A stretch of 64,000 nucleotides of DNA, from assembly GCF_001642935.1 (NCBI RefSeq), contig NZ_CP016761.1, forward strand, positions 3,286,001 through 3,350,000. The letters run 5' to 3'. This document shows positions 5,536 to 54,194 of the stretch, piece after piece (positions within the stretch are counted from its first letter, which is position 1; each line of letters begins with the position of its first letter). The position numbers were made by a program, and so were the translations under genes. Source of the DNA: Fictibacillus arsenicus. Its GTDB lineage: Bacteria > Bacillota > Bacilli > Bacillales > Fictibacillaceae. The notes under the pieces are model-generated. The model searched no databases, was not told the DNA's origin, and saw only the letters and a program-made list of their open reading frames with translations.

Positions 5536-5635
5536 AATCTCACGAAAATGTGAATTATTCTCGCGAAAATGGAACTTATTCTCACGAAAATCTTTACGAA
5601 TCTCGCGAAAAATAAAATATACTCGCACGGCGACA
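5536..5635 (+). repeat. Phased intergenic element, copy 1
   Basis: Four units start at 5536, 5557, 5578 and 5599 (spacing 21, 21, 21, then 20). Each opens with AATCTC or ATTCTC and runs to about CRCGAAAAT. They are followed by the end box at 5619 (ATACTCGCACGGCGACA, a diverged form of ATACTCGCGAGTCGACA). It lies between the convergent ends of yqhV and fliT. One frame translates as SHEN/SREN heptads, which is a by-product of the 21-base period, because the other copies contain stops in that frame. Confidence 0.9.
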
Positions 5636-5668
5636 CAGTTCGACACGCTACTCTAATCAAAACAAAAA

Positions 5669-5691
5669 CCTTAGCCCACTCAGAGCTAAGG
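5669..5691 (-). terminator. Terminator of the fliD-fliS-fliT operon
   Basis: CCTTAGC and GCTAAGG form a 7-bp stem with a 9-base loop, followed on the minus strand by TTTTTG. Confidence 0.8.
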
Positions 5692-5696
5692 TTTCC

Positions 5697-6047
5697 TTAA
5701 TTTTTCTTATCAAAATACATCCCATCCGCCGATAGCGTCTGGTACGGGTTCGCGTACTGGACATTCTTTTCTTTCTTTTTCTTCATCATCGATAAGTTGT
5801 GCTTAATTTCTTCAAACTGGCGCACCAGCAGCGGTTCGATTGTCTCGTTCATCTTTACAATCATCTGTCCCATACGCTGATCTTCGTCTGAATACTCACT
5901 AGGCAGCTTATCCATGATCGCCTGACGCTGATCGAGCAGCTCATTCAACCTTTCGATGTAAGGTTCGCGCTCTTCTTTTGGAAGTCCTTTACTCACATGA
6001 TCAAACAGATTTTTCGTAATCTCCAATAAAATCTTAACTGCTGACAT
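5697..6047 (-). CDS. fliT: Flagellar protein FliT
   Basis: 116 residues, all helical, in the last position of a fliD-fliS-fliT operon. In B. subtilis this place holds fliT, which in enteric bacteria is the export chaperone of the FliD filament cap. Its ATG overlaps the stop of fliS (TAATG), so the two are probably translationally coupled. A charged KMNETIEPLLVRQFEEI helix and a lysine-rich KKKKEK stretch near residue 95 are visible. Sequence conservation in this family is low, so the call rests on both position and pattern. Confidence 0.88.
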   Translation of the reverse strand: MSAVKILLEITKNLFDHVSKGLPKEEREPYIERLNELLDQRQAIMDKLPSEYSDEDQRMGQMIVKMNETIEPLLVRQFEEIKHNLSMMKKKKEKNVQYANPYQTLSADGMYFDKKN

Positions 6048-6448
6048 TACACGCGCCCAGCCTCGCCGTGCTGCATGCGGCGGTTAATCTGGATTACTTC
6101 TTTCCAAGTGTTTCGGAAATCCAGCACATAATCTTCCACTTCATCCAGGATCTCAACATCGCTTTGGATGTTTGCCTCAATCAGACGGCGATTAATGTAA
6201 TCGTACATCTGCATCAAAGACTTGGAAACTTCCAGATCCATGTTCAGCGTAACCATCAATTCCTGAATGACCTTCTGTGCTTTTAATAGATTTTTATTCT
6301 TTTCTTCTGTATTCTTCATCTCGATCGCCGTACGCGCGAGACCGATAAATTTCAAACATCCGTTATAGAGCATGAGCGTCAACTCGCCGGGTGACGCCGT
6401 TTGGACTGAGTTATTCTGATACGCCTTGTTCGCGTTAAGTATGGACAT
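6047..6448 (-). CDS. fliS: Flagellin export chaperone FliS
   Basis: 133 residues, the family length. It has the FliS signatures AYQNNSVQTASPGELTLMLY near the start and LMQMYDYINRRLIEAN in the middle. FliS binds the C-terminal helices of flagellin in the cytoplasm, prevents premature polymerisation and hands it to FlhA. In Bacillus it also cooperates with the CsrA-FliW-Hag circuit. It follows fliD by 31 bases and overlaps fliT. Confidence 0.97.
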   Translation of the reverse strand: MSILNANKAYQNNSVQTASPGELTLMLYNGCLKFIGLARTAIEMKNTEEKNKNLLKAQKVIQELMVTLNMDLEVSKSLMQMYDYINRRLIEANIQSDVEILDEVEDYVLDFRNTWKEVIQINRRMQHGEAGRV

Positions 6449-6479
6449 GTAAAGGTAACACTCCTTTTTGGTTTAAAGA

Positions 6480-8006
6480 TTACTGTCCGCCGCCAAACTG
6501 TTGCATTAAGTACATAGATTGTTGATTCGATCGCTGAATCGCTTGCTCCATTGCAGAGAACTGACGCCAATAGCGATCTTCTACTTGAACTAAACGATCT
6601 TCGAATGCAGAGATACGCTTGTCCACGTCTGTTAGTTCACGGCCTAGTGTGAACTGTGCGTTTGTGCGAAGAGCATTACCTGCTTTTAGTTCAATTTTAT
6701 CAATGGTCGTGTCAATTGTTTTACGAAGATTTTTTGCGATTCCATCATCACCAGTAAATAACTTCATAACTGCGTCAGGATTGTCAGCTAATGCTTTACG
6801 CAGTTTTGTCTCGTCGATTTTCAGCTTACCTTTATCCAAGTAATTATTCGTCGTTGTGATACCTATTTCAGAAAGCTGATTATAGTTTGTATCTCCGGTA
6901 TTTACAGTAGCGTACATATTTTGGCGAAGAGTATTAATGCTAGATGTAAGAATGGAATCTCCTCGCAACATACCACTTTTTGCTTTTTCATCCCATAGCT
7001 CCGCTTCCTTCTCAGAAAGGTCTTTTCGCTGTGCATCTGTTAGCGGAGGAAAATCACGATACTTAGTTTCACTCGTTTTTTTGTTGATTGCTTCAATGGT
7101 TTCATTATACTTGTCCACAAAATTTTTGATCGAATCGACTACACCATCTGTATCTGTTGTTGAACTAATTGTTGCTGTACCTAAAGCTTTTAATGAATAT
7201 GAAACTCCGCTGATTGTAAAATTATTTGAAGATCGTTTAATATTTGTTAGACCATTTAGAGTAAATTCTGCGTCCTTACCATCAACAGCTGGTGTAGGTT
7301 CCAATAATTGTGCATCAGTTCCACTTAGCATTGAACCAAAGCCGATTTTATTAAAAAAACTTACCGTATTAGTATCTTCAAGAGATAACTCAGAACCCGA
7401 GCCAGTTAAATTGTTAGAAATAACAAACTTACCAGTTGATTCATCATAGAAGGCAGACATTTCAAGTCCTGCTTCAGATAATTTTTTAGCTACTGATTCT
7501 AAAGTATCCTTTGTTGGATCAATTGTTATTTCTTTTGCTAATGCTTCAAAAGAAGAACTGCCAGGTTTTTTCACATTTACCTTAAGAGATATAGGATCAA
7601 CTCCAAATAATGCATTAACATCCTTTAACGTATCAGTAGCTTTGGCATTAACTCCAGAATCTTGGATGACTCCTGATACCCAGTTCCTCGCAGTTGCGAG
7701 CTCTTTAACTGTAATTGTCGATGTAATATTCGATGCACTACCCGAAGCTGTTGCAGAGACTGCATTTGGATTTGTGCTCGTAACCATTTTCTTGTTAAAA
7801 GTCCCCTGCAGAGCTATTCCGTCAAAAATAGTACGATCTAATTCTTCTAATAGTTTATTCATCGAACGATAATCATCACGCTGCCATTCGAGCATCGTTT
7901 TTTTCTGCGCTAATTTATCTAATGGAATACGCTCTGCTTTCATTAAATCGCCTACGAGCGTGTCAATATCCATTCCACTGGCTAATCCGCCAATTCTCAT
8001 GCTCAC
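6480..8006 (-). CDS. fliD: Flagellar filament capping protein FliD
   Basis: 508 residues, close to B. subtilis FliD (about 498). The N-terminus IGGLASGMDIDTLV is the FliD_N signature, and the C-terminal FliD_C region is coiled-coil and ends near the filament tip binding segment (RLVQVEDRYWRQFSAMEQ). It forms the cap at the filament tip that folds flagellin subunits in place. The start could be GTG 8006 or ATG 8000; the GGTGAT ribosome site is weak for either. It is the second gene of flaG-fliD-fliS-fliT. Confidence 0.96.
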   Translation of the reverse strand: MSMRIGGLASGMDIDTLVGDLMKAERIPLDKLAQKKTMLEWQRDDYRSMNKLLEELDRTIFDGIALQGTFNKKMVTSTNPNAVSATASGSASNITSTITVKELATARNWVSGVIQDSGVNAKATDTLKDVNALFGVDPISLKVNVKKPGSSSFEALAKEITIDPTKDTLESVAKKLSEAGLEMSAFYDESTGKFVISNNLTGSGSELSLEDTNTVSFFNKIGFGSMLSGTDAQLLEPTPAVDGKDAEFTLNGLTNIKRSSNNFTISGVSYSLKALGTATISSTTDTDGVVDSIKNFVDKYNETIEAINKKTSETKYRDFPPLTDAQRKDLSEKEAELWDEKAKSGMLRGDSILTSSINTLRQNMYATVNTGDTNYNQLSEIGITTTNNYLDKGKLKIDETKLRKALADNPDAVMKLFTGDDGIAKNLRKTIDTTIDKIELKAGNALRTNAQFTLGRELTDVDKRISAFEDRLVQVEDRYWRQFSAMEQAIQRSNQQSMYLMQQFGGGQ

Positions 8007-8021
8007 GGTTCATCACCGTCC

Positions 8022-8366
8022 CTAAATTTTTTTATCTACGAAAATCCCCATAAAATCAATCATTTCAGCATACATATCAAGAAACTTTTTATTCGGAATT
8101 TCTTTTACAACTTCCTTAGTCACTTCATCCACAATCTGCACATAATAATCGTTCAGTTTTTCGTGCAGAACAAACTTTGACGAAGTATGTGCCGGCTCCA
8201 GCATGTCGTTCATCGCACTGATTACTTTTTCTAGCTTCTCTTTACTTGGTTTTACTTGTACTGTAGCTTCGGCTTGAGAAGTAGTTTCTTGTGTGTTTTG
8301 GCTTTTAAGCACAGGCTCAGATTTTTGAAAAACAGGAGAACTAATTGATTGTAGTTCCACCTTCAT
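8022..8366 (-). CDS. flaG: FlaG family protein
   Basis: 114 residues. The first half is a low-complexity S/Q/E/T tail; the second half (about 60-114) is the FlaG domain, with SSKFVLHEKLNDYYVQIVDE, VVKEIPNKKFLDMYAEM and FVDKKI. FlaG (YvyC in B. subtilis) influences filament length in some bacteria; its mechanism is not settled. It is the first gene of the fliDST operon and has a sigma-D promoter directly upstream. Confidence 0.94.
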   Translation of the reverse strand: MKVELQSISSPVFQKSEPVLKSQNTQETTSQAEATVQVKPSKEKLEKVISAMNDMLEPAHTSSKFVLHEKLNDYYVQIVDEVTKEVVKEIPNKKFLDMYAEMIDFMGIFVDKKI

Positions 8367-8393
8367 CGCCCCTTTTATTTTTCTCTACGTTTT

Positions 8394-8420
8394 ATATCGG
8401 ATTGTACAAATAATTGTTGA
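8394..8420 (-). promoter_or_regulatory. Sigma-D promoter of flaG-fliD-fliS-fliT
   Basis: On the minus strand TCAA (8417-8420), 15 bases, then TCCGATAT (8394-8401). This compares with the sigma-D consensus TAAA-N15-GCCGATAT (two mismatches). The -10 box is identical to that of hag in this window. Confidence 0.75.
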
Positions 8421-8619
8421 GGAAGAAGCTTAAAAAGAAAACTGAAGAAATTTTATTACAATTCTATGAAACTACTCTACTAGCCGGTTTTTTATTGTAA
8501 AATAGTTGATGTTGAAGAAGATTAATGAAATAAAAATAACAATAACTACCTTTCTATTTAAATCCTAAAAATAAATGAACCAATAAATAAAATCCTAAAA
8601 TAATTCTAACGAGAGGATA

Positions 8620-10539
8620 ATGGCAGTAATGAAAGACCATCAAAAAAAACATCTAAAGAAACGCAACCGGTCTGATAAAGAACAGAGAACAGCCATTGAA
8701 CAACCTCTGAAAAATAGATACATAACAGGTCTGGATGGTTTGCGGGCCATTGCTGTTCTTGCTGTTATTGCCTATCATTTAAATTTTGATTGGGCAGCTG
8801 GAGGCTTACTTGGAGTAACCGTCTTTTTTGTTCTATCTGGTTATTTGATTACAGATCTATTAATTGCGGAGTTCGTTACTACCAATCGGATAAATTTTAA
8901 AAACTTTTGGATAAGAAGAGCTCGCAGGCTCCTACCAGCCATGTTTACGATGCTTCTTGTGGTCATTACGTGGGTTACGATCTTTGAGCAGTCAATGTTG
9001 GATCGACTAGAGGAAGATACAGTTGCCGCTATTCTTTACGTCAGCAACTGGTGGTACATTTTCCAGGACCTTTCATATTTTGAGAGTTTCGGTCCCCCTT
9101 CCCTGCTGACACATTTTTGGTCGCTGGCAGTGGAAGAACAATTTTATATTCTATGGCCGCTCCTGATCGTTTTGGTCTTGAAGCTTAAAGTAAAAGAAGG
9201 ATCACTTTTCTCTATTATTCTATTAGGTGCTATCGCTTCAGCTGCTGCGATGACCATGTTGTACGAACCAGGAACGGATCCAAGCCGGGTTTATTACGGA
9301 ACGGATACCCGTGTCTTTTCGCTATTACTTGGGGCAAGTCTGGCTGTCATCTGGCCGAGCCGAAAACTATCAACCAGCTTACCATCTGAAATACGGTGGA
9401 AACTAGATTTTGTCGGTCTATTCGCTTTAAGTTTCATTTTCTACATGTTCTGGAGCTCGGACCAGTATCAGGAATTTCTCTATCAAGGCGGTATGGTGGC
9501 GATATCCGTTGCCTCATTGCTTGTAGTCGCAGTAATCGTTCATCCTTCAAGTAAGTTGAACACATGGTTAAGTTTTAAGCCGTTACGCTGGATTGGCGTC
9601 CGCTCATATGGAATCTACTTGTGGCATTTTCCAGTGATTGTGTTAACGAGCCCTCAATGGGGAGCAGATTCACCAAGCCTGGTGAGGACCGCGTTTCAGC
9701 TGTTTTTAATACTAGTACTTGCAAGTCTTTCATGGATGTTCATTGAAAATCCGATTCGTAAAGGCGCATTAACCAAGTTTTGCAGAGTTGTTAAACACGG
9801 TGAATGGAGACGCGAAATATCGTTTATCGGACGCTTTGTCACAACAGCAAGTATCTTGTGCGTTTTTCTTGCCATTTCCACCATTGGACTCACAACAACA
9901 TCCGTTGCGCTTAGTAAAGACAATGTGATTAATGCGATCCAAGAAAAGGTCGGTAAAGAAGCTGAACCGCCTACAGAGAATAAGATAAATAAACCCGATT
10001 CTAAACCTGAAACACCAAAAGTAGAGGAAAAACCGAAAGAGAAAACACCTCCAATTGAAGCTCCACCCGTTTCGGAAAACAAATCCGTTACTGTAATTGG
10101 GGATTCAGTCATGAACGATGTAATCCCACACCTTGAAGAAGCCTTTAACAAGGTGGAAGTTGACGCAAAAATTGGCCGTCAATTTCGAGAAGCTGAAGAC
10201 ATTGTGAAGCAAAAGAAAAGCAGTGGCAGCTTAGGAGAGATCGTTGTCATTGAACTTGGAGCAAACGGACCGCTTTCAGATAAAAAACTAGCTGAGTTAA
10301 TAGAAGAGATCGGAACGGACCGGGAGATTTACATGATCACTACACGTGTACCAAAACCGTGGCAAAATGAGATTAACGAGACCATCAAAAAGGTTGCCAG
10401 AGGGTATCAAAATGTGAAAGTGGTAGATTGGTTTACTTTTAGTGAATCTCACCTCGATTGCATTGGAAATGACGGTGTTCATCTAACACTAACAGGTGCA
10501 AGAGTTTACGCGGAATATCTGATAGATCATATCAAATAA
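8620..10539 (+). CDS. OatA-like O-acetyltransferase (AT3 membrane domain plus SGNH domain)
   Basis: 639 residues. The N-terminal acyltransferase-3 domain (about 35-385, some ten membrane segments) includes GLDGLRAIAVLAVIAYH and AVEEQFYILWP. A second hydrophobic stretch near 410-430 leads to a K/E/P-rich linker (about 450-485). A C-terminal SGNH esterase-type domain follows, with GDS near 493-495 and the D-x-x-H pair in DGVH near 618-621. This layout is that of OatA/YrhL proteins, which carry acetyl groups out and transfer them to peptidoglycan or wall polymers, often giving lysozyme resistance. It is inserted on the opposite strand inside a region that is purely flagellar in B. subtilis. The acceptor is not certain. 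Confidence 0.88.
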   Translation: MAVMKDHQKKHLKKRNRSDKEQRTAIEQPLKNRYITGLDGLRAIAVLAVIAYHLNFDWAAGGLLGVTVFFVLSGYLITDLLIAEFVTTNRINFKNFWIRRARRLLPAMFTMLLVVITWVTIFEQSMLDRLEEDTVAAILYVSNWWYIFQDLSYFESFGPPSLLTHFWSLAVEEQFYILWPLLIVLVLKLKVKEGSLFSIILLGAIASAAAMTMLYEPGTDPSRVYYGTDTRVFSLLLGASLAVIWPSRKLSTSLPSEIRWKLDFVGLFALSFIFYMFWSSDQYQEFLYQGGMVAISVASLLVVAVIVHPSSKLNTWLSFKPLRWIGVRSYGIYLWHFPVIVLTSPQWGADSPSLVRTAFQLFLILVLASLSWMFIENPIRKGALTKFCRVVKHGEWRREISFIGRFVTTASILCVFLAISTIGLTTTSVALSKDNVINAIQEKVGKEAEPPTENKINKPDSKPETPKVEEKPKEKTPPIEAPPVSENKSVTVIGDSVMNDVIPHLEEAFNKVEVDAKIGRQFREAEDIVKQKKSSGSLGEIVVIELGANGPLSDKKLAELIEEIGTDREIYMITTRVPKPWQNEINETIKKVARGYQNVKVVDWFTFSESHLDCIGNDGVHLTLTGARVYAEYLIDHIK

Positions 10540-10545
10540 ACAAAA

Positions 10546-10572
10546 AGCCAATCACGGGTCAAGTGATTGGCT
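10546..10572. terminator. Bidirectional terminator
   Basis: AGCCAATCAC and GTGATTGGCT form a perfect 10-bp stem with a 7-base loop. It serves the acyltransferase gene, and probably the pilO-like gene on the other strand (AAAAA on one side, TTCTTC on the other). Confidence 0.85.
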
Positions 10573-10576
10573 TCTT

Positions 10577-11332
10577 CTATTCTTCTTCATCACCATTGAT
10601 AAGCGGGTTTTCTTTTCCGTCTGGAGCTGGAAATCCCCCTTTTGGCAGGTCTTTTAAATACACGGTAAGTTCAGGCAAGTAATAGGCAGCCACGGTTACT
10701 TCATATTGTAACTGGTCATGATTCACTTCTGGTGAAGATAGTTCGATTTCATCTAAGCTAGAAAAAATGATCGCCTCAATGACCGTAATTCGTTTTAAGT
10801 CCTTAATCGTGCTTAAAAATTTTAGCAAGCCTTCATAATTTTTAGACACAACCGACATTTCAACCGTAATCTTTTGAACCCCTTCAGGTAAAGCTTCGGG
10901 TGATGACGATTCTTTTCCATCAGATGAATTTGTTTGATCTAAAAGAATTTCTCCCGCTTTTTTTAAAGGATCATCTGTTTCTTCTTTGGGAGTGGTACTG
11001 ATTTTACTGTCGCTAAAATCCATCGTTACGATCAAACTATCAGACAGGGTCTCTGCTTTTTCAAATTGAAGAATGAGCTGGTCAACTAAAGGTTTTACAG
11101 GGACTTCTTCTTGAAGAGAATATGTATTTTCCAGTAAAACCGGTGTTGATTCATGGAGAGGCTTGTTCATTTTTTCTAAGAACGTTTGCTGTTGTTTGAT
11201 TTCTGAACTGACCGTTTCGACTTTTTGATGCAGGGGAGCAAGAACACCAAAATATCCATAAAGTCCACTAGCTAAAAGCAGGATAGATGCTGCAATGCCA
11301 ACATATGATAAACGCTTATCCTTATCTCTCAT
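10577..11332 (-). CDS. PilO-like type IV pilus inner-membrane protein
   Basis: 251 residues. A short basic N-terminus and one membrane helix (about 10-30) are followed by a coiled-coil (VETVSSEIKQQQTFLEKM) and a C-terminal ferredoxin-like region with KITVEMSVVSKNYEGLLKFL. This is the pattern of PilO proteins, which pair with PilN to form the alignment complex of type IV pili. Its ATG overlaps the stop of the upstream pilN remnant (TAATG). With pilM and most of pilN missing it is probably non-functional. Family assignment is by pattern, not by strong motifs. Confidence 0.65.
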   Translation of the reverse strand: MRDKDKRLSYVGIAASILLLASGLYGYFGVLAPLHQKVETVSSEIKQQQTFLEKMNKPLHESTPVLLENTYSLQEEVPVKPLVDQLILQFEKAETLSDSLIVTMDFSDSKISTTPKEETDDPLKKAGEILLDQTNSSDGKESSSPEALPEGVQKITVEMSVVSKNYEGLLKFLSTIKDLKRITVIEAIIFSSLDEIELSSPEVNHDQLQYEVTVAAYYLPELTVYLKDLPKGGFPAPDGKENPLINGDEEE

Positions 11333-11520
11333 TATTCTCCACCTGCTAAATCATGTAAATGATCTTTGTTGAATTGTATTTTGTATTGAGCTCTATACCT
11401 TGGTAAATACCCATTAAGCTCTGTCAAATCTTCTCCTTCAGCAACTTCTTCAAAATTGGTAGTTTCCATATTTTCAATCTTAGCTTCGGTTAAATAACGT
11501 GAATTTGTCAACTCGTGCAA
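11332..11520 (-). pseudogene. PilN-like 3' remnant, 5' part missing
   Basis: A 62-codon open frame with no ATG and no ribosome site, opening just after an in-frame TAG. It ends in the overlap with the pilO-like gene. The tail (LTELNGYLPRYRAQYKI) resembles the C-terminal part of PilN proteins from Bacillus pilus clusters, and position upstream of pilO is the normal one for pilN. The 5' end was evidently lost at a break near 11515-11535, where a remnant on the other strand begins. Confidence 0.55.
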
Positions 11521-12105
11521 GTTGGCAATCCACTAGAGTTCAGAAACGACAGTGATCTTTATCAAAAATTTGAAATAGATGGCCCTCTCTATGTAGATGG
11601 AGACCTAAATTTAATCGGAGCAAATGTGAAATTTAATTCAACCATCTACGTGACAGGCAAAACTACCATTCGTTATTCACGGATACAAGGACTTCAAGAT
11701 GACGGAACGGAAACATCCCTGGTCATCTTTGGAAAAGATGCGATTGAAATTTCAAATAATAACGTTTATGGGGACGAACCAAATACTATAAGGGGCTTTT
11801 TCTATTCGGAAGAATTAATGGAGATCTACGGGGTATCTTCCAACCTTGAAATCCAAGGAGGCATCTTTGGAAGAAAGGTAGTTCTGAACGCAACAAGAGG
11901 CCAAGTTCGTCGGGGTGATCCGATTTACTGGGGATCACTCCTTATAGGGTATGAAGAGGAATACGCAGAAAATCAGCAAAACATCTCCCCTTCTAAATCC
12001 AGACTGCGAGTAATCTATAATCCTGAACTTATAAAGAATCCTCCAGAAGGGCTGCCGATTGTAAAGGATTTAGATGTGTCGGTAGTGAAGCGTGAAATGC
12101 ATTAA
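11515..12105 (+). pseudogene. 3' remnant of a larger beta-rich protein (pilus-cluster type)
   Basis: 196 codons with only a GTG (11515) near the 5' end, no ribosome site and an in-frame TGA 15 bases upstream, so the N-terminus is probably missing. The sequence is rich in short beta-strand steps (DGDLNLIGANVKFNSTIYV, ATRGQVRRG), like parallel beta-helix or polymer-forming proteins found in type IV pilus clusters of Bacillaceae. It meets the pilN remnant head to head with a 6-base overlap. It ends in a good terminator, so the 3' end is intact. Function not known. Confidence 0.5.
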
Positions 12106-12117
12106 ACTCTTATCATC

Positions 12118-12147
12118 AAGTCTTTCCTACCGTTTGTGGAAAGACTT
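12118..12147 (+). terminator. Terminator after the 11515-12105 remnant
   Basis: AAGTCTTTCC and GGAAAGACTT form a perfect 10-bp stem with a 10-base loop, followed by GTTTA. Confidence 0.7.
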
Positions 12148-12149
12148 GT

Positions 12150-12455
12150 TTACATTGAAAAATATAAAAAGAGCTGCCATCCAACCACACAACTATAAAT
12201 AATGAAGGCAATCAAACTCAGTCTTCTTACATTCTTATGAACTGGAAAAAATCCATACCATATAACAAGAACAGAGAAAACAAACTTCAGTAACAAAAAC
12301 AAAATGGGATGATAAGCATATAGAGTGTTCATCAAAGGATTAAGTTCCCTAGCGCCATTCATCAGCAAAACATGAGTTACAACAGCATCTAACATATTTA
12401 ACAAGCCCAAACCTAAGCAGATCCAAAAATGAGGTTGGAACTGATATGCTTTCAT
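12150..12455 (-). CDS. Small membrane protein, DUF5658-like
   Basis: 101 residues with three hydrophobic segments. The motif NMLDAVVTHVLL, then ARELNPLMN, then LLLKFVFSVLV is the DUF5658 pattern (N-x-x-D-x-x-x-T and NP). The function is unknown. The start ATG 12455 has GAGGGG about 12 bases upstream; the in-frame GTG at 12467 overlaps that site. It lies alone between the pilus remnant and the hag region. Confidence 0.7.
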   Translation of the reverse strand: MKAYQFQPHFWICLGLGLLNMLDAVVTHVLLMNGARELNPLMNTLYAYHPILFLLLKFVFSVLVIWYGFFPVHKNVRRLSLIAFIIYSCVVGWQLFLYFSM

Positions 12456-12543: not shown

Positions 12544-12550
12544 AAGAGTG

Positions 12551-12727: not shown

Positions 12728-12748
12728 GTGATACACCTCACTTAACTA

Positions 12749-26368: not shown

Positions 26369-26468
26369 AATCTCACGGAAATAGAGGATATTCTCACGAG
26401 AATGCGATTTAATCTCACGAGATTTTACACTAATTTCACGAGAATTACTATATACTCGCGAGTCGACA
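26369..26468 (+). repeat. Phased intergenic element, copy 2
   Basis: Units at 26369, 26390, 26411 and 26432 (spacing 21, 21, 21, then 20), then the full end box ATACTCGCGAGTCGACA at 26452. It lies between the convergent kinase and degU. The frame that gives SHEN heptads in copy 1 meets TAA here after two units, so the element is not coding. Confidence 0.92.
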
Positions 26469-26507
26469 CACTGCCACAAACCCCAGAATCTCATCTGGAC
26501 ACAAAAA

Positions 26508-32071: not shown

Positions 32072-32171
32072 AATCTCACGAATAGTGAAGTTAATCTCAC
32101 GAAAATGGACGATAATCTAACGAATTTTGTAAGTAATCTCACGAATATTTCAAAATACTCACGAGTCGACA
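32072..32171 (+). repeat. Phased intergenic element, copy 3
   Basis: Units at 32072, 32093, 32114 and 32135 (spacing 21, 21, 21, then 20) and the end box ATACTCACGAGTCGACA at 32155. The third unit has one change in its core (CTAACG). It lies between the convergent acyltransferase and FAD oxidoreductase genes, after a separate strong terminator. Confidence 0.92.
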
Positions 32172-36252: not shown

Positions 36253-36351
36253 AATCTCACGAGAATTAAGTTTAATCTCTCGAAAACGCAATTTAATTTC
36301 ACGAGTTTTTGATTAATCTCACGAAAATAATATTATACTCGCGAGTCGACA
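36253..36351 (+). repeat. Phased intergenic element, copy 4
   Basis: Units at 36253, 36274, 36295 and 36315 (spacing 21, 21, 20, 20) and the full end box ATACTCGCGAGTCGACA at 36335. A second ATTCTGTGACA follows at once. It lies between the convergent LTA-synthase-like gene and csaB. Confidence 0.92.
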
Positions 36352-36410
36352 TTCTGTGACAAATAAACAACCCTGCCAGAACACCTTTAAGCATCCTAAC
36401 AGGGTTTAAA

Positions 36411-43384: not shown

Positions 43385-43485
43385 AATCTCACGAGAATTG
43401 GTGTTAATCTCACGAATTTGAATCTTATTCTCACGAGAAATTACCATAATCTCACGAAAATCAAGCACATACTCGCGAGTCGACA
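43385..43485 (+). repeat. Phased intergenic element, copy 5
   Basis: Units at 43385, 43406, 43427 and 43448 (all spacing 21) and the end box ATACTCGCGAGTCGACA at 43469. This is the only copy not between convergent genes (it is upstream of tagA and downstream of an SLH gene, both minus strand) and the only one with 21 bases before the end box. Confidence 0.92.
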
Positions 43486-45640: not shown

Positions 45641-47566
45641 TTATTTTGCTAAAGGTAAATCTCTCAGAAGTGTTCCATATGGTCCATCTTCTTTGTAAAC
45701 GAATGCTTTTTCATAATTAGCACCATTTAAATTCTTTGGTGCAATTTGAAGCCATATTCCTTCATTAGTTTTAGACGCCACCTCGTTTAAAACAAGAACT
45801 GGTGTACCTTCTAAAGGAATGGAATACAGCTTGCTAGCTTCAGCTGTCGCATCGCTTCTTACATTTACTCCGTCCGTTAACGTTACCGAAATTCCATATT
45901 GGTTACGTTCCTTCTCACCTAAGTAGCGGTCAATTCTGTACATATAACCTGCAATTTTTTGTCCCCAGTAAGGATCAGATGCGTATCGAACATTCATACC
46001 TAGTTCTTTATCACCAACAACTTCACCGTTTGCTTTCCATCCTTGAATAAAATAGCTGGAAGTCGGATCGAGCAAGTATTCCTTAACCAGAACTTCAATA
46101 CATGCTTCATAGGATTTAAATGTATCGCCGCTCTCATACGCGGAGCCATCGACTGCGCGAATACCGAATAGATTCTTTTTATCGATAGCAAGCCTGCTTG
46201 TGCCCCAACCACTTTCATGGATGGCATGAGACAATAAATACATCGCATTGACGTTATATTTAGCTTCTACATTTTTGAATGCTTGTCCTAAGTTTTCGAG
46301 AATCGTATTGTCCGCAGCTGATTCAGGCTTATTATTCTTAACAAAATCATTCAGCTGTTCTGCCGTGTAGCTTGTCTTCGTATAAAGTGGCATTACATTA
46401 AAGTACTGATACATGTTATAAGTGTTGCCGTTTCCAGAAAATGAATGACCATCTTTACTCTTATAGTCTCCATTCGGAAGGGTTCCGCTGCTTCCAAACC
46501 AAAATGCACCATAAGTATCTGTGTTCACGTTATACGTATAGTGTGTCAGCTTTCCGTTTTCAGCCTTATAATAAGATGCACCTTTTACTTTAACAGTCGG
46601 ATGAAGTGTTGCTTCATTCATCTTAAAGTAACCGATTGTATTATTGAACTTAACCTTAACCCATGTTTCACCGGCATCTAAAAATTCCGTTTCTGTTCCT
46701 GCAACTAAACTAAAGTAATGATCTCCAAATCCGCTAGTCTTATAGAGTACAGATGCAAGTGGCTGAACTTGAGCTGGAGAAACAACTCCACTCTTCATGT
46801 AAACGACTTTGTTGTCTTTTAAAACAACGTGATTAGCATCTGTCGCTGCAGCTTTTGCTTCATCATAGGTTTCATACTCTTTAACATTTGTAGTAGAATC
46901 CTTTGTTACTGTTGCAAGATAAAAGTTTGGAACAGGCGGTTTAGGCGGGTTCTTCAGAACGTCTATCATACGCACTAAAAATGCGCTCGTCGTTCCGCGT
47001 GTTGCATACTCAGAAGGACGGAACGTGTTATCACCATATCCTGCAATAATTTTTGCATAAACCATTCTTTCTACAGAAAGTACTGCCCAGCTTTGGACCT
47101 TTGAAGCATCTGCAAACTTCAACTCTGCTTCTGGAAGCTTGATTCCTTTATATTCAAAAGCTCCATTCATCATGGAAGCCATCGCTTCTCTTGAAATCGG
47201 TGCATCAGGCAAAAACTTGCCGTCTGGTGTACCATTAACAATGTTCATTTCAGCAGCTTGCTGAACAACTTTGTAATACCATGCGCCTTCTTTTACATCA
47301 GAAAAACTTTTCGGGTTGATGACTTCTAAATTTTGCGCTTCTAAAACACGTACTAAAAATGCCGCAAACTCGGCACGGGTTACATCACGATCTGGCTTAT
47401 AGTAAGTCTGGCCATCAATGACTTCCCCTTTTAAATAACCCAAATCGATGAGCTTTCTCATATCCCCTTCAAAATAATGCCCTGTAATGTCATCAGCTGC
47501 ACTAGCTGAATATGTGCTGAACAACATGACAATAGACAATAATAATAAAGCCAACCATTTTTTCAC
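45641..47566 (-). CDS. SLH-domain N-acetylglucosaminidase, paralogue
   Basis: 641 residues with the same order as its neighbour: signal peptide (MKKWLALLLLSIVMLF), three SLH repeats (VTRAEFAAFL, ISREAMASMM, ATRGTTSAFL), SH3-like region, glucosaminidase (SHAIHESGWGTSRLAIDKKN) and a final SH3 region. The third SLH repeat reads ATRG in place of the TRAE motif in both genes. GTG 47566 is the start, with GGGGG before it. A recent tandem duplication is likely; each has its own terminator. Confidence 0.9.
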   Translation of the reverse strand: MKKWLALLLLSIVMLFSTYSASAADDITGHYFEGDMRKLIDLGYLKGEVIDGQTYYKPDRDVTRAEFAAFLVRVLEAQNLEVINPKSFSDVKEGAWYYKVVQQAAEMNIVNGTPDGKFLPDAPISREAMASMMNGAFEYKGIKLPEAELKFADASKVQSWAVLSVERMVYAKIIAGYGDNTFRPSEYATRGTTSAFLVRMIDVLKNPPKPPVPNFYLATVTKDSTTNVKEYETYDEAKAAATDANHVVLKDNKVVYMKSGVVSPAQVQPLASVLYKTSGFGDHYFSLVAGTETEFLDAGETWVKVKFNNTIGYFKMNEATLHPTVKVKGASYYKAENGKLTHYTYNVNTDTYGAFWFGSSGTLPNGDYKSKDGHSFSGNGNTYNMYQYFNVMPLYTKTSYTAEQLNDFVKNNKPESAADNTILENLGQAFKNVEAKYNVNAMYLLSHAIHESGWGTSRLAIDKKNLFGIRAVDGSAYESGDTFKSYEACIEVLVKEYLLDPTSSYFIQGWKANGEVVGDKELGMNVRYASDPYWGQKIAGYMYRIDRYLGEKERNQYGISVTLTDGVNVRSDATAEASKLYSIPLEGTPVLVLNEVASKTNEGIWLQIAPKNLNGANYEKAFVYKEDGPYGTLLRDLPLAK

Positions 47567-47691
47567 TATACTACCCCCATTTGTAAAAATTACTAAGGTT
47601 CACCACACCCTCTCTTAATCTACCAATATTCTACATAATTTGCTAGGAACTTTCAGACTATCTTTTATTTAACAATTATAGTGAAAAAGAA

Positions 47692-47718
47692 AAAACCCAC
47701 CTGAATTAGGTGGGTTTT
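47692..47718 (-). terminator. Terminator of the 47728-48843 gene
   Basis: AAAACCCACCT and AGGTGGGTTTT form a perfect 11-bp stem with a 5-base loop, followed on the minus strand by TTCTTTTTC. Confidence 0.88.
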
Positions 47719-47727
47719 CATTTAATT

Positions 47728-48843
47728 TTATTCTTCAGTTCCAAACAGTAATTCATACCATTCTTCATAATTACTTTCAACTTCATCGGATGTATACAGT
47801 CTCCAGCGATTATTTTCTAAGCGGAGATAGGCATAACCTGATGCATCTTTTTCGTATTCTACAGTTTCCCCATCTTCTGTTCTTTCCATATCATATATTG
47901 CATTTTCCAGCTTTATTTTTACAAGGCGTGTGTTAATCTCGGCATTTTCATAATCGATTCCAATATCACCTGTAAGAACGCTATTGTAAACTACAAATTT
48001 CGGTTCTAAAATCATATCTAAAAAAGTATTACTTGCTGAGTGGGCAAATCCCATTTGTCTAACATCAATTAAGTCCCTCATTGCATCCCAGTTTTTCTCA
48101 TTGATGTATTTTGTACCTTTAGTTTCGTTATCCAAAATAACTAATTCTAGCATTTCTTTAGTAGGTAGATTAGCTGTTTCATTTTTTAGAGAACGGTAGA
48201 TCATAACGATGGATTCAGCACGTGTTGCCTGATTGTTTGGCGCTAACTTATCAGCTGAAATACCTTTCATAATGTCTAATCCGTTCACCATACGAAGATG
48301 GTTGTAAGCCCAATGATCCTTAGGAAGATCCTTGTAATCTTTTGGAGTACCATTCTCAAATTCTACTGTTTTATTAAATGCACGAACAAGCATAGCTGCC
48401 ATTTCAGCACGCGTAATTTTCTTGTTTGGCTCAAATGTTGTAGCAGATGTTCCGCTTACTACTCCATTCTGATAAGCAATTTGAATGTGTGTTTTTCCCC
48501 AGTGTTTACTGATGTCTTTAAAAGGAACAGTTTTTCCATTCGCTTTTAATTCCAAAGCACGTACGATAAAAGAAACAAACTCACCACGAGTAATTTTGTC
48601 GTCTGGGTTTAGAAAAAGTAAATCAAATTCTACCCCGTCATCCTCAACAGTTTCAATTGTACCTCTTACAATGTCTGCATACAGCATTTCCCATAAGTTA
48701 TTCTCAGCCCAGTGCCCTTCAATATCTACCGGCATATAGTATGTAAACGGATCTTTGTATCCAGCCGCACTTGCAGATTGACCAGCGAACGGTGTTGCCA
48801 ACAGAGACAAAGCCAATAATGAACTTGCTAGTTTTTTCTTCAA
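47728..48843 (-). CDS. SLH-domain surface protein of unknown function
   Basis: 371 residues. The signal peptide ends near QSASA. Three SLH repeats (about 35-215) have ITRGEFVSFI, ITRAEMAAML and ATRAESIVMI. The remaining 150 residues are a soluble domain with no motif I recognise (MRDLIDVRQMGFAHSAS, ending EEWYELLFG). Start TTG 48843 has GAGGAGG upstream. It is the third SLH protein in this row, probably attached via pyruvylated polymer. Confidence 0.85.
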   Translation of the reverse strand: MKKKLASSLLALSLLATPFAGQSASAAGYKDPFTYYMPVDIEGHWAENNLWEMLYADIVRGTIETVEDDGVEFDLLFLNPDDKITRGEFVSFIVRALELKANGKTVPFKDISKHWGKTHIQIAYQNGVVSGTSATTFEPNKKITRAEMAAMLVRAFNKTVEFENGTPKDYKDLPKDHWAYNHLRMVNGLDIMKGISADKLAPNNQATRAESIVMIYRSLKNETANLPTKEMLELVILDNETKGTKYINEKNWDAMRDLIDVRQMGFAHSASNTFLDMILEPKFVVYNSVLTGDIGIDYENAEINTRLVKIKLENAIYDMERTEDGETVEYEKDASGYAYLRLENNRWRLYTSDEVESNYEEWYELLFGTEE

Positions 48844-48978
48844 ATTCTTTTCCTCCTCTTATATTTTACATTCTTGGAAATAATAATATCTTTCAGGAAC
48901 TTTTTCTAATGCTTATTTTACTATCTTTAGGAGGAAATGTTAAGTATTTAAATTTTTAAAATAATTATCCAGTATATA

Positions 48979-49983
48979 CTATGGAACGATATTCTTAACA
49001 AACGGAATCTTTTGAAGAATAACGACTGCTAGATAACTAGATAAAGTTACAACAATAAACGTTACGGGGACTCCGAATAGTACGTGAATCGTTCTGCTGT
49101 GAAGCGCAAAGCCAAAGAGATCTTGAAAAATACCAGACTTATATAAGGTTAGAAAGAACGGGTGAATCAAATAGATTCCAAAGCTTGCAGCTGCAAATGA
49201 ACTCATAAATGGCACGTTCATATTAAACGAATGTTTAAATAATACGAAAACTGCAGCTGAAACAAGCACGGTATTTGGCGACAAATAATCTAGCCAAAAA
49301 ATGTCCAAAGCACCTTTTGAAGACGTTGCCCAGTACGTACCAAAGATTGTAACCAGCATTCCAACGATTCCACCCGCATAGATAAGCATCGTTGTTTTTT
49401 TACTTATTGTATGTTTAGCGAGCAAGTAGCCTAATAAAAAGTATCCAGCGAATCCCCAGAACATCCCCATCTTGAAACCGATGTGCATGGACGTAAAATA
49501 GAAGATTACGTTTTCGAAGCACATAAAAAACCAAATAGCGACAAAATAAATCATTAGATTTGTACGGTGTGCAATAGCACGAAAAAGCGGAGTTGCGAAA
49601 TAAATTCCGACAATCATATAAAGAAACCACAAATGGTAATAGGCTTTTCCTGTATATATATTTTTGATTGCAGTTTCAATTGAAAACAGATCCAGCTGCG
49701 TTCTGACTTTAAAAAGTTCATAAAACAGTGTCCAGAAAAGGAACGGTATGATGATCTTGGAGGCTCTCTTTTTAAAGAACACAGAAAGAGGTTCTTCTTT
49801 CCCCAGAAGCAATGCTCCGCTGACCATAACGAAGACAGGAACACTCCATCGTGCAAAACTATCGATAAGGTTTCCTAGCCACCACGTTTTAGAAATATCC
49901 ACTACCATTAATGAAGCGATTACATGAATCATAACAACGGCCATGATAGCCAGTGATCGAAGTGCGTTTGCGTATTGAATCAA
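48979..49983 (-). CDS. Acyltransferase-3 family membrane protein
   Basis: 334 residues, about ten membrane helices. ALRSLAIMAVVMIHVIAS near the start and VMVSGALLLG are AT3 features; HLWFLYMIVGIYFATPLFRA is the middle motif. It may O-acetylate a wall polymer, as PatB-linked acyltransferases do in the B. anthracis group (inference). The start is TTG 49983, with GGAAAGCAGGG upstream. Divergent from secA2. Confidence 0.85.
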   Translation of the reverse strand: MIQYANALRSLAIMAVVMIHVIASLMVVDISKTWWLGNLIDSFARWSVPVFVMVSGALLLGKEEPLSVFFKKRASKIIIPFLFWTLFYELFKVRTQLDLFSIETAIKNIYTGKAYYHLWFLYMIVGIYFATPLFRAIAHRTNLMIYFVAIWFFMCFENVIFYFTSMHIGFKMGMFWGFAGYFLLGYLLAKHTISKKTTMLIYAGGIVGMLVTIFGTYWATSSKGALDIFWLDYLSPNTVLVSAAVFVLFKHSFNMNVPFMSSFAAASFGIYLIHPFFLTLYKSGIFQDLFGFALHSRTIHVLFGVPVTFIVVTLSSYLAVVILQKIPFVKNIVP

Positions 49984-50181
49984 TGCATTCCCTGCTTTCC
50001 TATTTAACTATGAAATTTTGTTGATTTCGTCTTAATCATACAAATTGGTTTGGTATATGACAATATTTTCTTTCCCACCAGCAGATTATTTAACCATTTT
50101 TGACAAAATCATTCTATTTTTGGATATTTTTATAAATCCTTGTGATATACTAGTTTCAGTATTTAATAAGGAGAGAGTAAG

Positions 50182-52545
50182 ATGTTGACCTACTTGAAAA
50201 ACATCATAGATGAGCAGCAAAGAACGTTGAAGAAATACACCAAAATGGTAGACCAAATCAACGAGCTGGAAACTATTTTTAAAAAATATACAGATGAAGA
50301 TTTGCGAGCAAAAACAGCTGAGTTTAAAGAACAGCTCGCAGAAGGAAAAACAATCGATGACATAAAGTTCGAAGCGTTTGCGGTTGTACGTGAAGCTTCC
50401 AAGCGTGTGCTTGGCATGCGCCACTTTGACGTGCAGCTGATTGGCGGACTTGTTCTATTAGAAGGAAACATTGCTGAGATGGCAACGGGTGAAGGTAAAA
50501 CGCTTGTCGCTTCCCTTCCCTCTTATGTCCGTGCACTAGAAGGCAAAGGCGTTCACGTTATCACGGTTAACGAATACTTGGCTCGCCGTGACAGCGAATT
50601 TATTGGACAGATTCATTCTTTTCTTGGATTAACAGTTGGACTGAATGTTCCGCAGATCTCACCTGAAGATAAAGCAGCTGCGTATCAAGCAGATATTACA
50701 TATGGTGTCGGTAATGAGTTTGGTTTTGATTTTCTTCGAGACAACATGGTGCAGCAACCTTCTCAAAAGGTTCAGCGTCCTTATCATTTTGCGATTTTAG
50801 ATGAAGCGGACAGCGTACTGATTGATGAGGCTAGAACTCCGCTAATCGTTGCGGGTAAAACACAAGTAAGCCAGGAGCTGCATTATGTTTGTGCACAGCT
50901 TGTTAAGCGTTTTAAAGAAGAAGAGCACTACCTGTTTGATCCAGAAACGAAATCTGTAAGCTTAACTGATGCAGGAATAGACCGCATTGAAGCATGTTTT
51001 GGTGTTGGCAACCTATATGAACTTGAACATCAGATGCTTTACCACTATGTTCTTCAAGGATTGCGTGCTGCGATCATGCTGAAGCGCGATGTTGATTATA
51101 TCGTACGCGACGGAAAAGTGGAGCTCGTTGACCAGTTTACGGGCCGTATATTAGAAGGCCGCAGTTACAGTGACGGCCTTCATCAGGCGATTGAAGCCAA
51201 AGAAGGACTTACAGTAACAGAAGAAAACAAAACACAAGCCTCTGTTACGATTCAAAACTATTACAGAATGTACCCGATGGTTTCTGGAATGACGGGAACT
51301 GCGAAAACGGAAGAAAAAGAATTCCGTGATGTGTACGGCATGCATGTTATTCCGATTCCGCCAAATAAACCGCGTCAGCGTGAAGATATGACGGACCGTG
51401 TTTATGCGACACATGAGCAAAAGTACGAAGCGATTGCTGAGGAAGTAGCTCGCATCCACGAAACGAAGCAGCCTGTGTTGATTGGGACAACTACAATCGC
51501 ACAGTCTGAAGAAGTGGCATCCTACCTTGATAAAAAAGGCTTAACGTATCAACTGCTGAACGCAAAGAGCGAAGAGCAAGAAGCACAGTTGATCAGTCTT
51601 GCTGGTCAAAAAGGACAGATTACGATCGCGACAAACATGGCTGGCCGCGGAACTGATATTTTACTTGGCGAAGGCGTAAAAGAGCTTGGCGGGCTTTATG
51701 TTTTGGGAACAGAACGTCATGAAAGCCGCCGTATCGATAACCAGCTAAAAGGCCGGTCTGGACGTCAAGGAGATCCTGGACGCTCTCAATTTTTCGTAAG
51801 TATTGAGGATGAGATCGTTAAGCGTTTTGCTCGTGACGAGATGGAAAAGCTGCAAAAAGGAATGAAAACCGATGATACAGGCTTGATTTTAAATCAGAAT
51901 CCGGTTGCATTCATGGACCGTGTGCAGCGCATCTGTGAAGGTTTTAACTACTCTAGCCGTGAGTATACGCTAAAGCTGGATGATGTCGTGAACCAGCAGC
52001 GTACGATCATTTACAAGCTTCGCGATCAGCTTTTAGTTAAAGAAGAGGTCTTCCCTTATGTAAAAGAGATGGCTGAGGAAGCGATTGAAAAAGTGTACAA
52101 CGATCATATTACAGAAGATTTACTGCCGGAAGAATGGCGTTTAGACGAACTGCAGCACGACTTAACAATGATTTACGGAAACTACATTCAATTAAAAGAT
52201 CGCTACCAGGAAGATTATGAACTTCAAGATGATCTGAAGGCACAGCTCACTGTTTATCTAGAGGAACTTGAAGCCTTTATGCAAGCTGATGAGAAGATGA
52301 CACAATGGCTGAAGAGCTATACAGTGATGGCGTTAGACCGTGAATGGGTCAGTCATCTAGAGGCGATGAGCCACTTAAAAGAGGGAATCGGACTCCGCCG
52401 TTATGGACAGGACGATCCTATGAGATTATATGAAAAAGAAGGCCTGCAGATCTTTATCGGGACACGCCACAAGATTCATAAAGCGGCGATTCGCCAACTG
52501 ACACAGTTCATGCAAGCTGTAGAAAATCAAAAGCAAAAACAATAA
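50182..52545 (+). CDS. secA2: Accessory Sec ATPase SecA2
   Basis: 787 residues. Walker A GEGKTL (103-108), LDEADSVLIDEARTPL, FTGRILEGRSYSDGLHQA and NMAGRGTDILLG are the SecA motor motifs. It is shorter than housekeeping SecA and lacks the C-terminal zinc/SecB tail. The next gene is slaP, so it is the S-layer-type SecA2 of the B. anthracis group, exporting S-layer and SLH proteins across the membrane. ATG 50182, with AAGGAGAGAG upstream. Confidence 0.96.
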   Translation: MLTYLKNIIDEQQRTLKKYTKMVDQINELETIFKKYTDEDLRAKTAEFKEQLAEGKTIDDIKFEAFAVVREASKRVLGMRHFDVQLIGGLVLLEGNIAEMATGEGKTLVASLPSYVRALEGKGVHVITVNEYLARRDSEFIGQIHSFLGLTVGLNVPQISPEDKAAAYQADITYGVGNEFGFDFLRDNMVQQPSQKVQRPYHFAILDEADSVLIDEARTPLIVAGKTQVSQELHYVCAQLVKRFKEEEHYLFDPETKSVSLTDAGIDRIEACFGVGNLYELEHQMLYHYVLQGLRAAIMLKRDVDYIVRDGKVELVDQFTGRILEGRSYSDGLHQAIEAKEGLTVTEENKTQASVTIQNYYRMYPMVSGMTGTAKTEEKEFRDVYGMHVIPIPPNKPRQREDMTDRVYATHEQKYEAIAEEVARIHETKQPVLIGTTTIAQSEEVASYLDKKGLTYQLLNAKSEEQEAQLISLAGQKGQITIATNMAGRGTDILLGEGVKELGGLYVLGTERHESRRIDNQLKGRSGRQGDPGRSQFFVSIEDEIVKRFARDEMEKLQKGMKTDDTGLILNQNPVAFMDRVQRICEGFNYSSREYTLKLDDVVNQQRTIIYKLRDQLLVKEEVFPYVKEMAEEAIEKVYNDHITEDLLPEEWRLDELQHDLTMIYGNYIQLKDRYQEDYELQDDLKAQLTVYLEELEAFMQADEKMTQWLKSYTVMALDREWVSHLEAMSHLKEGIGLRRYGQDDPMRLYEKEGLQIFIGTRHKIHKAAIRQLTQFMQAVENQKQKQ

Positions 52546-52557
52546 GGAGGTCCAATC

Positions 52558-53454
52558 ATGCTTTCTCTTTTTAAAAAGAAAAATCTAAACAAAACAGGAG
52601 AAGACACGACGGTGTCCTCTGAAGAATTATTAAATGAAACGGTGGAACAAAGTATGGAGGAAGAAGTAGAAACGAAACTATTTTACTCTCCTGCATATGA
52701 GCCAGCGCAGGAATTAAAGTATGTTTATCAATTTTTGAACTTGGAGCTTTCTCCTTTAAAGCCAAATCAAATCTCACTATCTGGTGTAGATTTGAAGCAA
52801 GATGGCAGCGTAACAGTAACTGCCTTTGTACGCAACAGCTTAAGTAAAGCAATTAAATTGCAGGAAATGCCGCTATTGTTACTAGATGCAGATGGTAAAA
52901 AACTAGCACGCAAAGCGTTTGACCTTTCTGTTGTTGGAGAGATTCCGGCGAAAAGCAGTGTACCTTGGCTGTTTAGTTTTGGAGCAGCTGACTTGTCTGT
53001 TGAAGGTGAACTTCCGAAGACTGGCTGGAAGCTTGCATTTGAATTAAAAACACAGAAAAAGCACGCTTTAGATCTAGAAGAAAGCTGGGCGAACAGCCTT
53101 CCTGAAGAAGATAAAGCACGCTTACATCAGCTAGTAGCTGACATGCAGGCACCGAAACCTGGCGAAGTGAACTTCATGGGGCTTCAGGCGAAAAAGTCTG
53201 AGGATGGCAACTTGCACGTAACGATGCTTATCCGAAATGGTTCCGATAAAAACATCCAGCTGCAACAGCTTCCGCTTGAAGTTTCAGATGCATCTGGTGA
53301 TGTAATTGCTAAAGGCGGTTTTGCGCTGAATGATTTTGAAGTAAAAGCGAACACGAGCAAGCCATGGACGTTTATCTTCCCTAGTAATCTACTACTGAAG
53401 GAAGAAATCGATCTGTCTGTGTGGAAAGCTTATCCTCCACAACAAAATCAATAA
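52558..53454 (+). CDS. slaP: Accessory Sec S-layer assembly protein SlaP
   Basis: 298 residues with two related beta-rich halves (SLSGVDLKQDGSVTVTAFVR and NFMGLQAKKSEDGNLHVTML; PWLFSFGAADL and PWTFIFPSNLL). This matches the SlaP family, which works with SecA2 to secrete S-layer proteins in B. anthracis. It follows secA2 by 12 bases with AAGGAGG. No signal peptide, so cytoplasmic. The halves look like an internal duplication. Confidence 0.93.
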   Translation: MLSLFKKKNLNKTGEDTTVSSEELLNETVEQSMEEEVETKLFYSPAYEPAQELKYVYQFLNLELSPLKPNQISLSGVDLKQDGSVTVTAFVRNSLSKAIKLQEMPLLLLDADGKKLARKAFDLSVVGEIPAKSSVPWLFSFGAADLSVEGELPKTGWKLAFELKTQKKHALDLEESWANSLPEEDKARLHQLVADMQAPKPGEVNFMGLQAKKSEDGNLHVTMLIRNGSDKNIQLQQLPLEVSDASGDVIAKGGFALNDFEVKANTSKPWTFIFPSNLLLKEEIDLSVWKAYPPQQNQ

Positions 53455-53462
53455 TATAATTG

Positions 53463-53512
53463 AACCAATCCTTAAGACGTATAAAAACGTTCAAAGGATT
53501 GGTTTTTTTTAA
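53463..53512 (+). terminator. Terminator of secA2-slaP
   Basis: AACCAATCCTT and AAGGATTGGTT form a perfect 11-bp stem with a 20-base loop, then eight T. Confidence 0.9.
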
Positions 53513-53584
53513 GCATAAAAACCGTGGAAGCAGGTTTGATTAAGCATTATACTGAAAATAATGACTAATTCTCGGAGTACAAAT

Positions 53585-54049
53585 GTGAAATCTAAAAAAC
53601 AATGTTATTTACTGCTTAGAAAAAAATTAAAGGTCCCCGTTTACATAGCTTTAATTATTTACATGACACTATTATTTTACGTTACTTTGCTAACAAAAAA
53701 TGATTATGTTTATGGTGAGGCTATAAACTTAGATTTATTTCGCACGATTATTTTAATGTGGAATAGCGGGAATCAAATGCTGCTCCTTAAAAACGTGTTA
53801 GGAAACCTAATTCTCTTTTTTCCGTTAGGGTGTATACTTCCGCTTTTATTTAGATGGGCTAATCATTTTATTTCTTCTGTTTTATATGGATTTTTGGCAA
53901 GTCTATTAATTGAAACAATGCAATATACGATTGGAAACCGCGTCTTTGATGTGGATGATCTAGTTTTGAATACGGCTGGGACTGTATTAGGCTGGATGTG
54001 TTTTAAGGTTTGTTTTGGAGTAGTTTACCTCGTTTTGAGGAGAAGGTAG
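53585..54049 (+). CDS. VanZ family membrane protein
   Basis: About 154 residues with four membrane helices. VLGNLILFFPLGCILPLLF, SLLIETMQYTIGNRVFDVDDL and NTAGTVLGW are the VanZ pattern (teicoplanin resistance relatives; the cell-wall related role is unclear). GTG 53585 lies 7 bases after GGAG; the upstream ATG 53561 has no ribosome site. Confidence 0.88.
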   Translation: MKSKKQCYLLLRKKLKVPVYIALIIYMTLLFYVTLLTKNDYVYGEAINLDLFRTIILMWNSGNQMLLLKNVLGNLILFFPLGCILPLLFRWANHFISSVLYGFLASLLIETMQYTIGNRVFDVDDLVLNTAGTVLGWMCFKVCFGVVYLVLRRR

Positions 54050-54094
54050 AGAATGGTTGAGTATGCGGATTGGGTGTCAGATAATGTCGTAGAA

Positions 54095-54194
54095 TGGCGG
54101 CTTGCGAGTATATTTTAATTTTCGTGAGATTAGAGGTCTTTTTCGTGAGATTACGGCAACTTTTCGTGAGAATGCCACTCATTCTCGCGAGATT
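54095..54194 (-). repeat. Phased intergenic element, copy 6 (inverted)
   Basis: On the minus strand units begin at 54194, 54173, 54152 and 54131 (spacing 21, 21, 21, then 20) and the end box at 54111 (ATACTCGCAAGCCGCCA, diverged). The first unit has the full palindrome TCTCGCGAGA. It lies between the convergent VanZ and M14 genes. Confidence 0.92.

Follow-up and report, generated by a model that had tools for sequence, protein, structure and literature searches.

Helically phased intergenic arrays in Fictibacillus, candidate landing sites for a cooperatively bound protein

Bacterial chromosomes carry marks such as parS, matS and the Noc sites, each of which is read by one protein, and to our knowledge most such protein-read marks consist of a single site whose core is fixed. 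They also carry dispersed repeats (BIME/REP, BOX and bcr) with many intergenic copies, often at gene ends, and at abrB a pair of tandem Spo0A boxes that lie 10 bp apart. The following systems are the closest to the elements described here: According to an excerpt of PMC5016525, plasmid centromere and iteron arrays (parC/ParR of pSK41 and R1, tubC, and parS of pSM19035) are rows of direct repeats that bind one dimer per repeat. An excerpt of PMC6657595 describes RefZ, a sporulation protein under Spo0A~P control, with five single near-palindromic motifs in Bacillus subtilis, so sporulation proteins do read chromosomal marks in Bacillus. The core of the Spo0A box is TGTCGAA, contacted at G2, C4 and G5 (PMC3485338, in part). 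We analysed a 64,000 bp window (3,286,001-3,350,000 of the 4.06-Mb single-contig genome of Fictibacillus arsenicus, labelled G000; its relatives are labelled G003, G007 and so on) that contains six intergenic copies of an element about 100 bp long. Each copy is a row of four units, made of a 14-bp core resembling WWTCTCRCGARAAT and a 6-7 bp spacer, that ends in a 17-bp end box (Table 1). These are very likely real, conserved, helically phased elements.

Five of the six copies (1, 3, 4, 5 and 6) have orthologues at the same site and on the same strand in G003, where most aligned blocks of the flanks are about 75-81% identical and the surroundings of copy 1 are syntenic on the left only. (G003 has ~27 kb of extra DNA between the copy 1 flanks, starting just to the right of the orthologue, when loci L099 and L103 are compared with 5470-5697 of the window.) With unit borders set by eye, identity in the five orthologous pairs is 0.84 in the cores, 0.88 in the end box and 0.29 in the spacers, where composition predicts 0.26, and the corresponding values for non-orthologous pairs are 0.82, 0.89 and 0.30. 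All 40 steps in the orthologous pairs are 20 or 21 bp. The initial annotation had proposed that spacers vary freely while spacing is kept, and this is what the orthologues display: spacers at chance level in a retained four-unit layout. Because cores and steps persist while spacers match only at chance, it is core and step that selection holds, and neither copying nor slippage accounts for the pattern; the spacers are far from the identity that recent mobile spread would leave, and the earlier exclusion of ordinary slippage is borne out. The proposed selection for same-face protein binding is likewise supported, as far as a sequence comparison can support a predicted interaction.

The step is as regular elsewhere. 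When it was left free at 15-28 bp in 96 copies, which had been found with models that favour 20-21 bp spacing, 213 of the 216 intervals were 20 or 21 bp (21 bp in 168, 20 bp in 45, 22 bp in two and 16 bp in one), and a single two-unit chain turned up in 300 random 220-bp pieces; both here and in the TGTCG offset count below, seven loci of other genera are excluded. A motif-free scan, in which four units had to resemble one another and the period could take any value from 12 to about 41, is without that spacing bias (pieces of G018, G035 and G036, of 1.2, 0.2 and 2.9 kb, were left out). Within 300 kb of G000 beyond the window it found eight arrays with all steps 20-21 bp, none of them closer than 24 kb to a listed copy, and within 156 kb of G007 it found eight more. 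Over four Fictibacillus sets, 81 of the 105 intervals of all arrays were 20 or 21 bp, and one shuffle of all the pieces gave one array. Spacing beyond the window is thus not random, and extrapolation from eight arrays in 300 kb gives roughly a hundred further arrays per genome. Sampling outside the genus was thin: in the same family G019 and G024 yielded one 20-21 bp array each and G023 one with steps of 19, 20 and 21 bp, and ten genomes of other families (500 kb in total) yielded none with all steps 20-21 bp.

In Fictibacillus the six copies are members of a family dispersed over the chromosome. The end box, with up to three mismatches allowed, occurs at 20 places in the genome (five for a reversed-pattern control), and a sequence-only model built from the six copies gave 73 matches at E ≤ 10 in G000, some of them the opposite strand of the same copies. 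In 60 genomes this model matched 17 of the 18 Fictibacillus (own genome included; G017 had no match) and four others. A second model, from an alignment of 32 own copies that omits 15 diverged, partial or duplicate entries, gave 48, 94, 56, 33 and 25 matches at E ≤ 1e-4 in G000, G007, G016, G014 and G015, respectively, and matched ten of 249 genomes of the order, seven of them Fictibacillus; the non-Fictibacillus matches of this search that were inspected are phased arrays that lack the TGTCG tail described below. A requirement for CGCG in both cores left a two-unit pattern without matches. The family has several core types, among them type A, the core of the window copies; type B, with cores AATCCCACGTTAAT and box ATAACCACGAGTCGACA; and type C, with cores ATTCCTGAAATT, then cores CCCGCGAGTTT, and box ATATCCGCGAGTCGACA. 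Some type B copies (L014, L013, L015, L045 and L062) have ATACC-N5-GGTAT upstream and ATACCC downstream, and also a GTTTC...GAAAC inverted repeat further upstream.

Other arrays keep the step and change the core. The motif CGTTGGATTA forms 24 pairs at 12 places in G007, none in 17 other species and none in the control; all are at 21 bp, though 20-22 bp was permitted, and their spacers differ. An end box or decayed end box stands at each of the six CGTTGGATTA places among the matches listed, which makes these arrays a variant of the window's family with a different core. H (CTATGAGTCAAA), a second family, gave 14 pair matches in six of 18 genomes (control 0). Its steps run 21,21,21,21,19,21,21 at two G000 places and one in G006, and the run 21,21,19,21,21 recurs at seven of twelve scored loci, these three included (one of the twelve had one unit, the G014, G005 and G006-degU chains were noisy, and loci of different species may be orthologous). 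Three family H loci, L252 (G000 ~1,007,126), L257 (G000 ~3,564,820) and L195 (the degU site of G012), have about eight units spaced 21 bp apart, except that a 19-bp step precedes the final three, and the TGTCG tail was not seen there. At the copy 2 site, beside degU, type A arrays occur in two of the 18 genus genomes (G000 and G010), G009 keeps an end box remnant and the other 15 have none. This site holds other phased arrays elsewhere: G012 and G006 have core TTCTATGAGTCAAA, and G017, the Fictibacillus genome that the first model did not match, has about six 21-bp units with core TGCGCCCGCG (L208). A GC-rich repeat of ~120-150 bp (CTCCTGCGGGA ... CCGCGGAAAGCGAG) is also present at this site in nine genomes (L205, L204, L198, L207, L197, L199, L202, L196 and, in part, L203). 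Two further G000 loci, L066 (~1,617,013) and L067 (~1,817,320), share the leader TTACGGTACGTGTTCTTAAAT, behind which TTTCACGC units recur about every 21 bp, and are possibly another family. In L053 (G000 ~3,182,372), a row of about seven 21-bp units, the repetition extends to several of the spacers and reflects recent unit duplication. We tentatively propose, at somewhat under an even chance, that all of these belong to one genome-wide class of helically phased arrays in Fictibacillus and its family, perhaps more than 100 per genome. A 20-21 bp step and units that resemble one another within the array would be its rule, with a core that varies by family and shifts by species; the arrays would be fast-evolving chromosome marks read by proteins, and one branch would be connected to Spo0A and thereby to sporulation.

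The possible connection to Spo0A comes from the end of the array. On the opposite strand the end box starts TGTCGACTCG, and in 56 of 78 elements a second TGTCG is found outside it at a distance of exactly 10 bp (with at least four of five letters matching, and 32 of them exact); the other offsets from 5 to 30 have 0-6 occurrences each, except +20 with 14. In the set of 32 own copies, the inner box reads exactly TGTCG 24 times and matches at least four of five letters in all 32, and the corresponding numbers for the outer box are 12 and 23. TGTCG-N5-TGTCG is absent from 300 kb of sampled genome and occurs once in the window, at copy 1. Thus the end box, originally annotated as the last part of the array, stands, but the TGTCG pair 10 bp apart also belongs to the element. 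The pair resembles tandem Spo0A boxes in its same-direction 10-bp arrangement. It also has the contacted G2, C4 and G5 (PMC3485338, in part) but differs in that a row of other sites adjoins it, mostly away from promoters, and in its final letters: the inner box is mostly TGTCGAC, and the full TGTCGAA occurs once among the 32 own copies, in the outer box. We therefore call the inner box Spo0A-box-like. From the letters and their spacing, the two boxes have about an even chance of being a tandem Spo0A site, and the tail suggests that Spo0A~P may take part in one branch of the class.

The copies have a preferred genomic setting. Three of 47 own copies overlap small open reading frames; of the remaining 44, 20 are in convergent, 21 in co-directional and 3 in divergent gaps, and among 81 sampled gaps of at least 150 bp the numbers are 12, 54 and 15. 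The excess in convergent gaps has p about 1e-6 (2e-4 without the window copies, when 15 of 38 are convergent). Clustering near the origin is borderline, with 31 of 47 in G000 (p 0.04; p 0.16 if the window cluster is counted once) and 40 of 58 in G007 (p 0.005, with the origin inferred from skew). A common orientation to the replication fork is not supported, since 31 copies run against it and 16 with it in G000, and 22 against and 36 with it in G007; position and orientation in G007 are from 58 of its 94 matches. The terminus was taken from GC skew; a dif-like pattern had no match.

Our preferred explanation, which we put at slightly better than even, is that each copy is a putative landing array for one or more sequence-specific, cooperatively bound proteins, with Spo0A beside it, in a structural role. 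The steps would be as follows: Every two turns of the helix one protein binds, always on the same face, about four neighbouring bound proteins are needed for a stable complex, and Spo0A~P, as the TGTCG pair hints, docks beside the array and helps or displaces its protein at the start of sporulation. The complex would be a structural mark, for chromosome organisation or gene-end insulation, instead of a promoter operator; this is the least secure step, taken from the preference of the copies for convergent gaps. That the arrays are bound by protein at all is likely. Arrays persist at the same intergenic sites between species and change their cores in a species-specific way across many loci. A trans-acting, phase-stacking reader of the core is proposed because conserved cores, free spacers, fixed step and layouts, and core change across many loci of one species are found together.

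Several observations count against this explanation. Exactly four scoring cores were found in no more than 25 of the 46 own chains and 27 of the 50 others when the step was left free (fewer in 18 and 22, more in 3 and 1), the orthologue of copy 3 in G014 is short by 6 nt, copy 2 is missing in most species, and about half of the copies lie outside convergent gaps. At the tail, the inner box ends in AC instead of the AA of the 0A box, only 32 of 78 elements have an exact outer box, and copies 3 and 5 have none. Copy 4 has a 10-of-12 promoter-like match overlapping its end box. Finally, the binding protein is itself putative, deduced from the DNA.

Could the copies instead be remnants of mobile elements, that is, solo ends or miniature inverted-repeat transposable elements of a Tn7- or Mu-like transposon with multi-site ends and a TGT...ACA terminus? 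Their dispersal, their avoidance of divergent gaps (3 of 44), the presence and absence between species at one site, and the TGTCGA that ends a row of sites would all fit. We nevertheless consider this unlikely, since decay would erode cores as fast as spacers, yet the cores persist, and sequence outside the end box is conserved too. Mu-transpos_C (PF09299) was found in one of seven genomes (G015) and not in G000, other transposase families not having been searched. At the empty copy 2 site of G014 no clear target-site duplication is seen, but the flanks there have diverged. Carriage by phages or plasmids is not supported either: three pattern scans of IMG/VR had no match, and plasmids and phages gave short, marginal matches only.

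A promoter and small RNA, in which the TGTCG boxes and a TATAAT-like stretch drive a transcript through the units, would account for the TATAAT or TATATT that type A end boxes have on their opposite strand and for the match at copy 4 mentioned above. Type B end boxes have no such stretch, and promoter-like matches at copies 1-6 number 1, 1, 1, 2, 2 and 1 against shuffle means of 1.0, 0.8, 1.2, 0.6, 1.6 and 0.6. With no excess over shuffles, a shared sigma-A promoter is not supported. The small RNA is also made improbable by the predicted fold of 32 copies (z -0.24 and -0.43 on the two strands), and at gathering scores none of the six copies matches Rfam. Tandem duplication by slippage, followed by decay without function, can point to repeated spacers in ATTAGACTCAATTCCTCAACA of G007 and in the seven-unit G000 array near 3,182,372, and to the different unit numbers of G012 and G006 at the degU site. 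It would, however, copy spacers along with cores, and across loci and species the cores agree and the spacers do not; moreover, the same irregular step recurs at separate loci, which slippage is not expected to cause, and we judge this origin very improbable. Intrinsic curvature from phased A-tracts is hardly credible: there are A/T-rich stretches about every 10-11 bp, but a wedge model gives an end-to-end ratio of 0.943 (mean z -0.27, n = 32), where shuffles give 0.950 and a phased A-tract reference 0.36. The copies are also not a CRISPR array, which needs repeats and spacers of ~20 bp or more (here 14 and 6-7 bp; cas genes were not searched for), nor BIME/REP elements, which require palindromic hairpin units.

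With the landing-array explanation preferred, a centromere or iteron array is the nearest working analogue. Both are rows of direct repeats on which, if the analogy holds, one dimer per repeat would bind and protein would build up along the DNA, as an excerpt of PMC5016525 describes for the plasmids. The plasmid arrays are found at one or a few loci near par genes, unlike the about 25-94 dispersed chromosomal copies with random spacers seen here, and no par genes were recognised by eye among the open reading frames beside the six copies (no family search was run). RefZ motifs, as described in PMC6657595, share the character of dispersed intergenic protein-read sites but are five single sites, not rows of four with several core types per genome. 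The arrays have in common with BIME/REP, BOX and bcr their many intergenic chromosomal copies. Those repeats are hairpins or fixed sequence, unlike the arrays, which have no RNA or DNA fold, free spacers and a fixed step. We regard the array class as new in kind, given these differences and an aimed search of the open-licence PMC literature (some candidates judged by title and the start of the abstract) that found no description of such elements; a known nucleoid-protein binder would weaken the newness. If our explanation is true, chromosome annotation would gain a new layer in these phased multi-site marks, whose cores change quickly, and the marks might link the sporulation switch to chromosome structure. 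The class carries a simple built-in test, the shift of one spacer by half a helical turn, and it offers good bait for the reader protein in its many natural copies, whose spacers are random.

Table 1. The six array copies of the window (window coordinates).
Copy	Position	Strand	Cores (14 bp)	Steps (bp)	End box	Outer box	Orthologues
1	5536-5635	+	four	21,21,21,20	5619-5635	CGACA at 5641-5645, +10 from CGACA of the end box	G003
2	26369-26468	+	four	21,21,21,20	26452-26468, exact	CCACA at 26474-26478, weak	
3	32072-32171	+	four	21,21,21,20	32155-32171	none	G003; G014 (6 nt lost)
4	36253-36351	+	four	21,21,20,20	36335-36351, exact	TGACA at 36357-36361	G003; G014
5	43385-43485	+	four	21,21,21,21	43469-43485, exact	none	G003
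6	54095-54194	-	four	21,21,21,20	54095-54111	CGACA at 54085-54089	G003 (same strand)

All six copies lie where the initial annotation had placed them, on the same strands and with four units each. Some of its finer points need amendment. The 20-21 bp steps and the 20-bp third gap of copy 4 are correct, but the last gap is not always 20 bp (it is 21 bp in copy 5). The end box is present in all six copies, but is exact in three and deviates from the consensus in the other three. Four units are the rule of the window family and not of the wider class, as there are seven- and eight-unit arrays in G000. The complete core is not a perfect palindrome, since none of the 24 units is self-complementary and ATTCTCGCGAGAAT is in none of them; the perfect palindrome ACTCGCGAGT sits inside the end box of copies 2, 4 and 5. 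Copy 3 lies between two terminator-like hairpins, copies 1 and 4 have one on their right, and the sole such match at copy 6 overlaps the array. A csaB-like protein is encoded beside copy 4, and its 95% identity to the counterparts in Fictibacillus arsenicus Con a/3 and Fictibacillus sp. BK138 places the genome in the genus Fictibacillus. The only Rfam match in the window of this Bacillota genome is a cspA thermoregulator at 4432-4855 on the minus strand (80.5 bits; cut-off 78).

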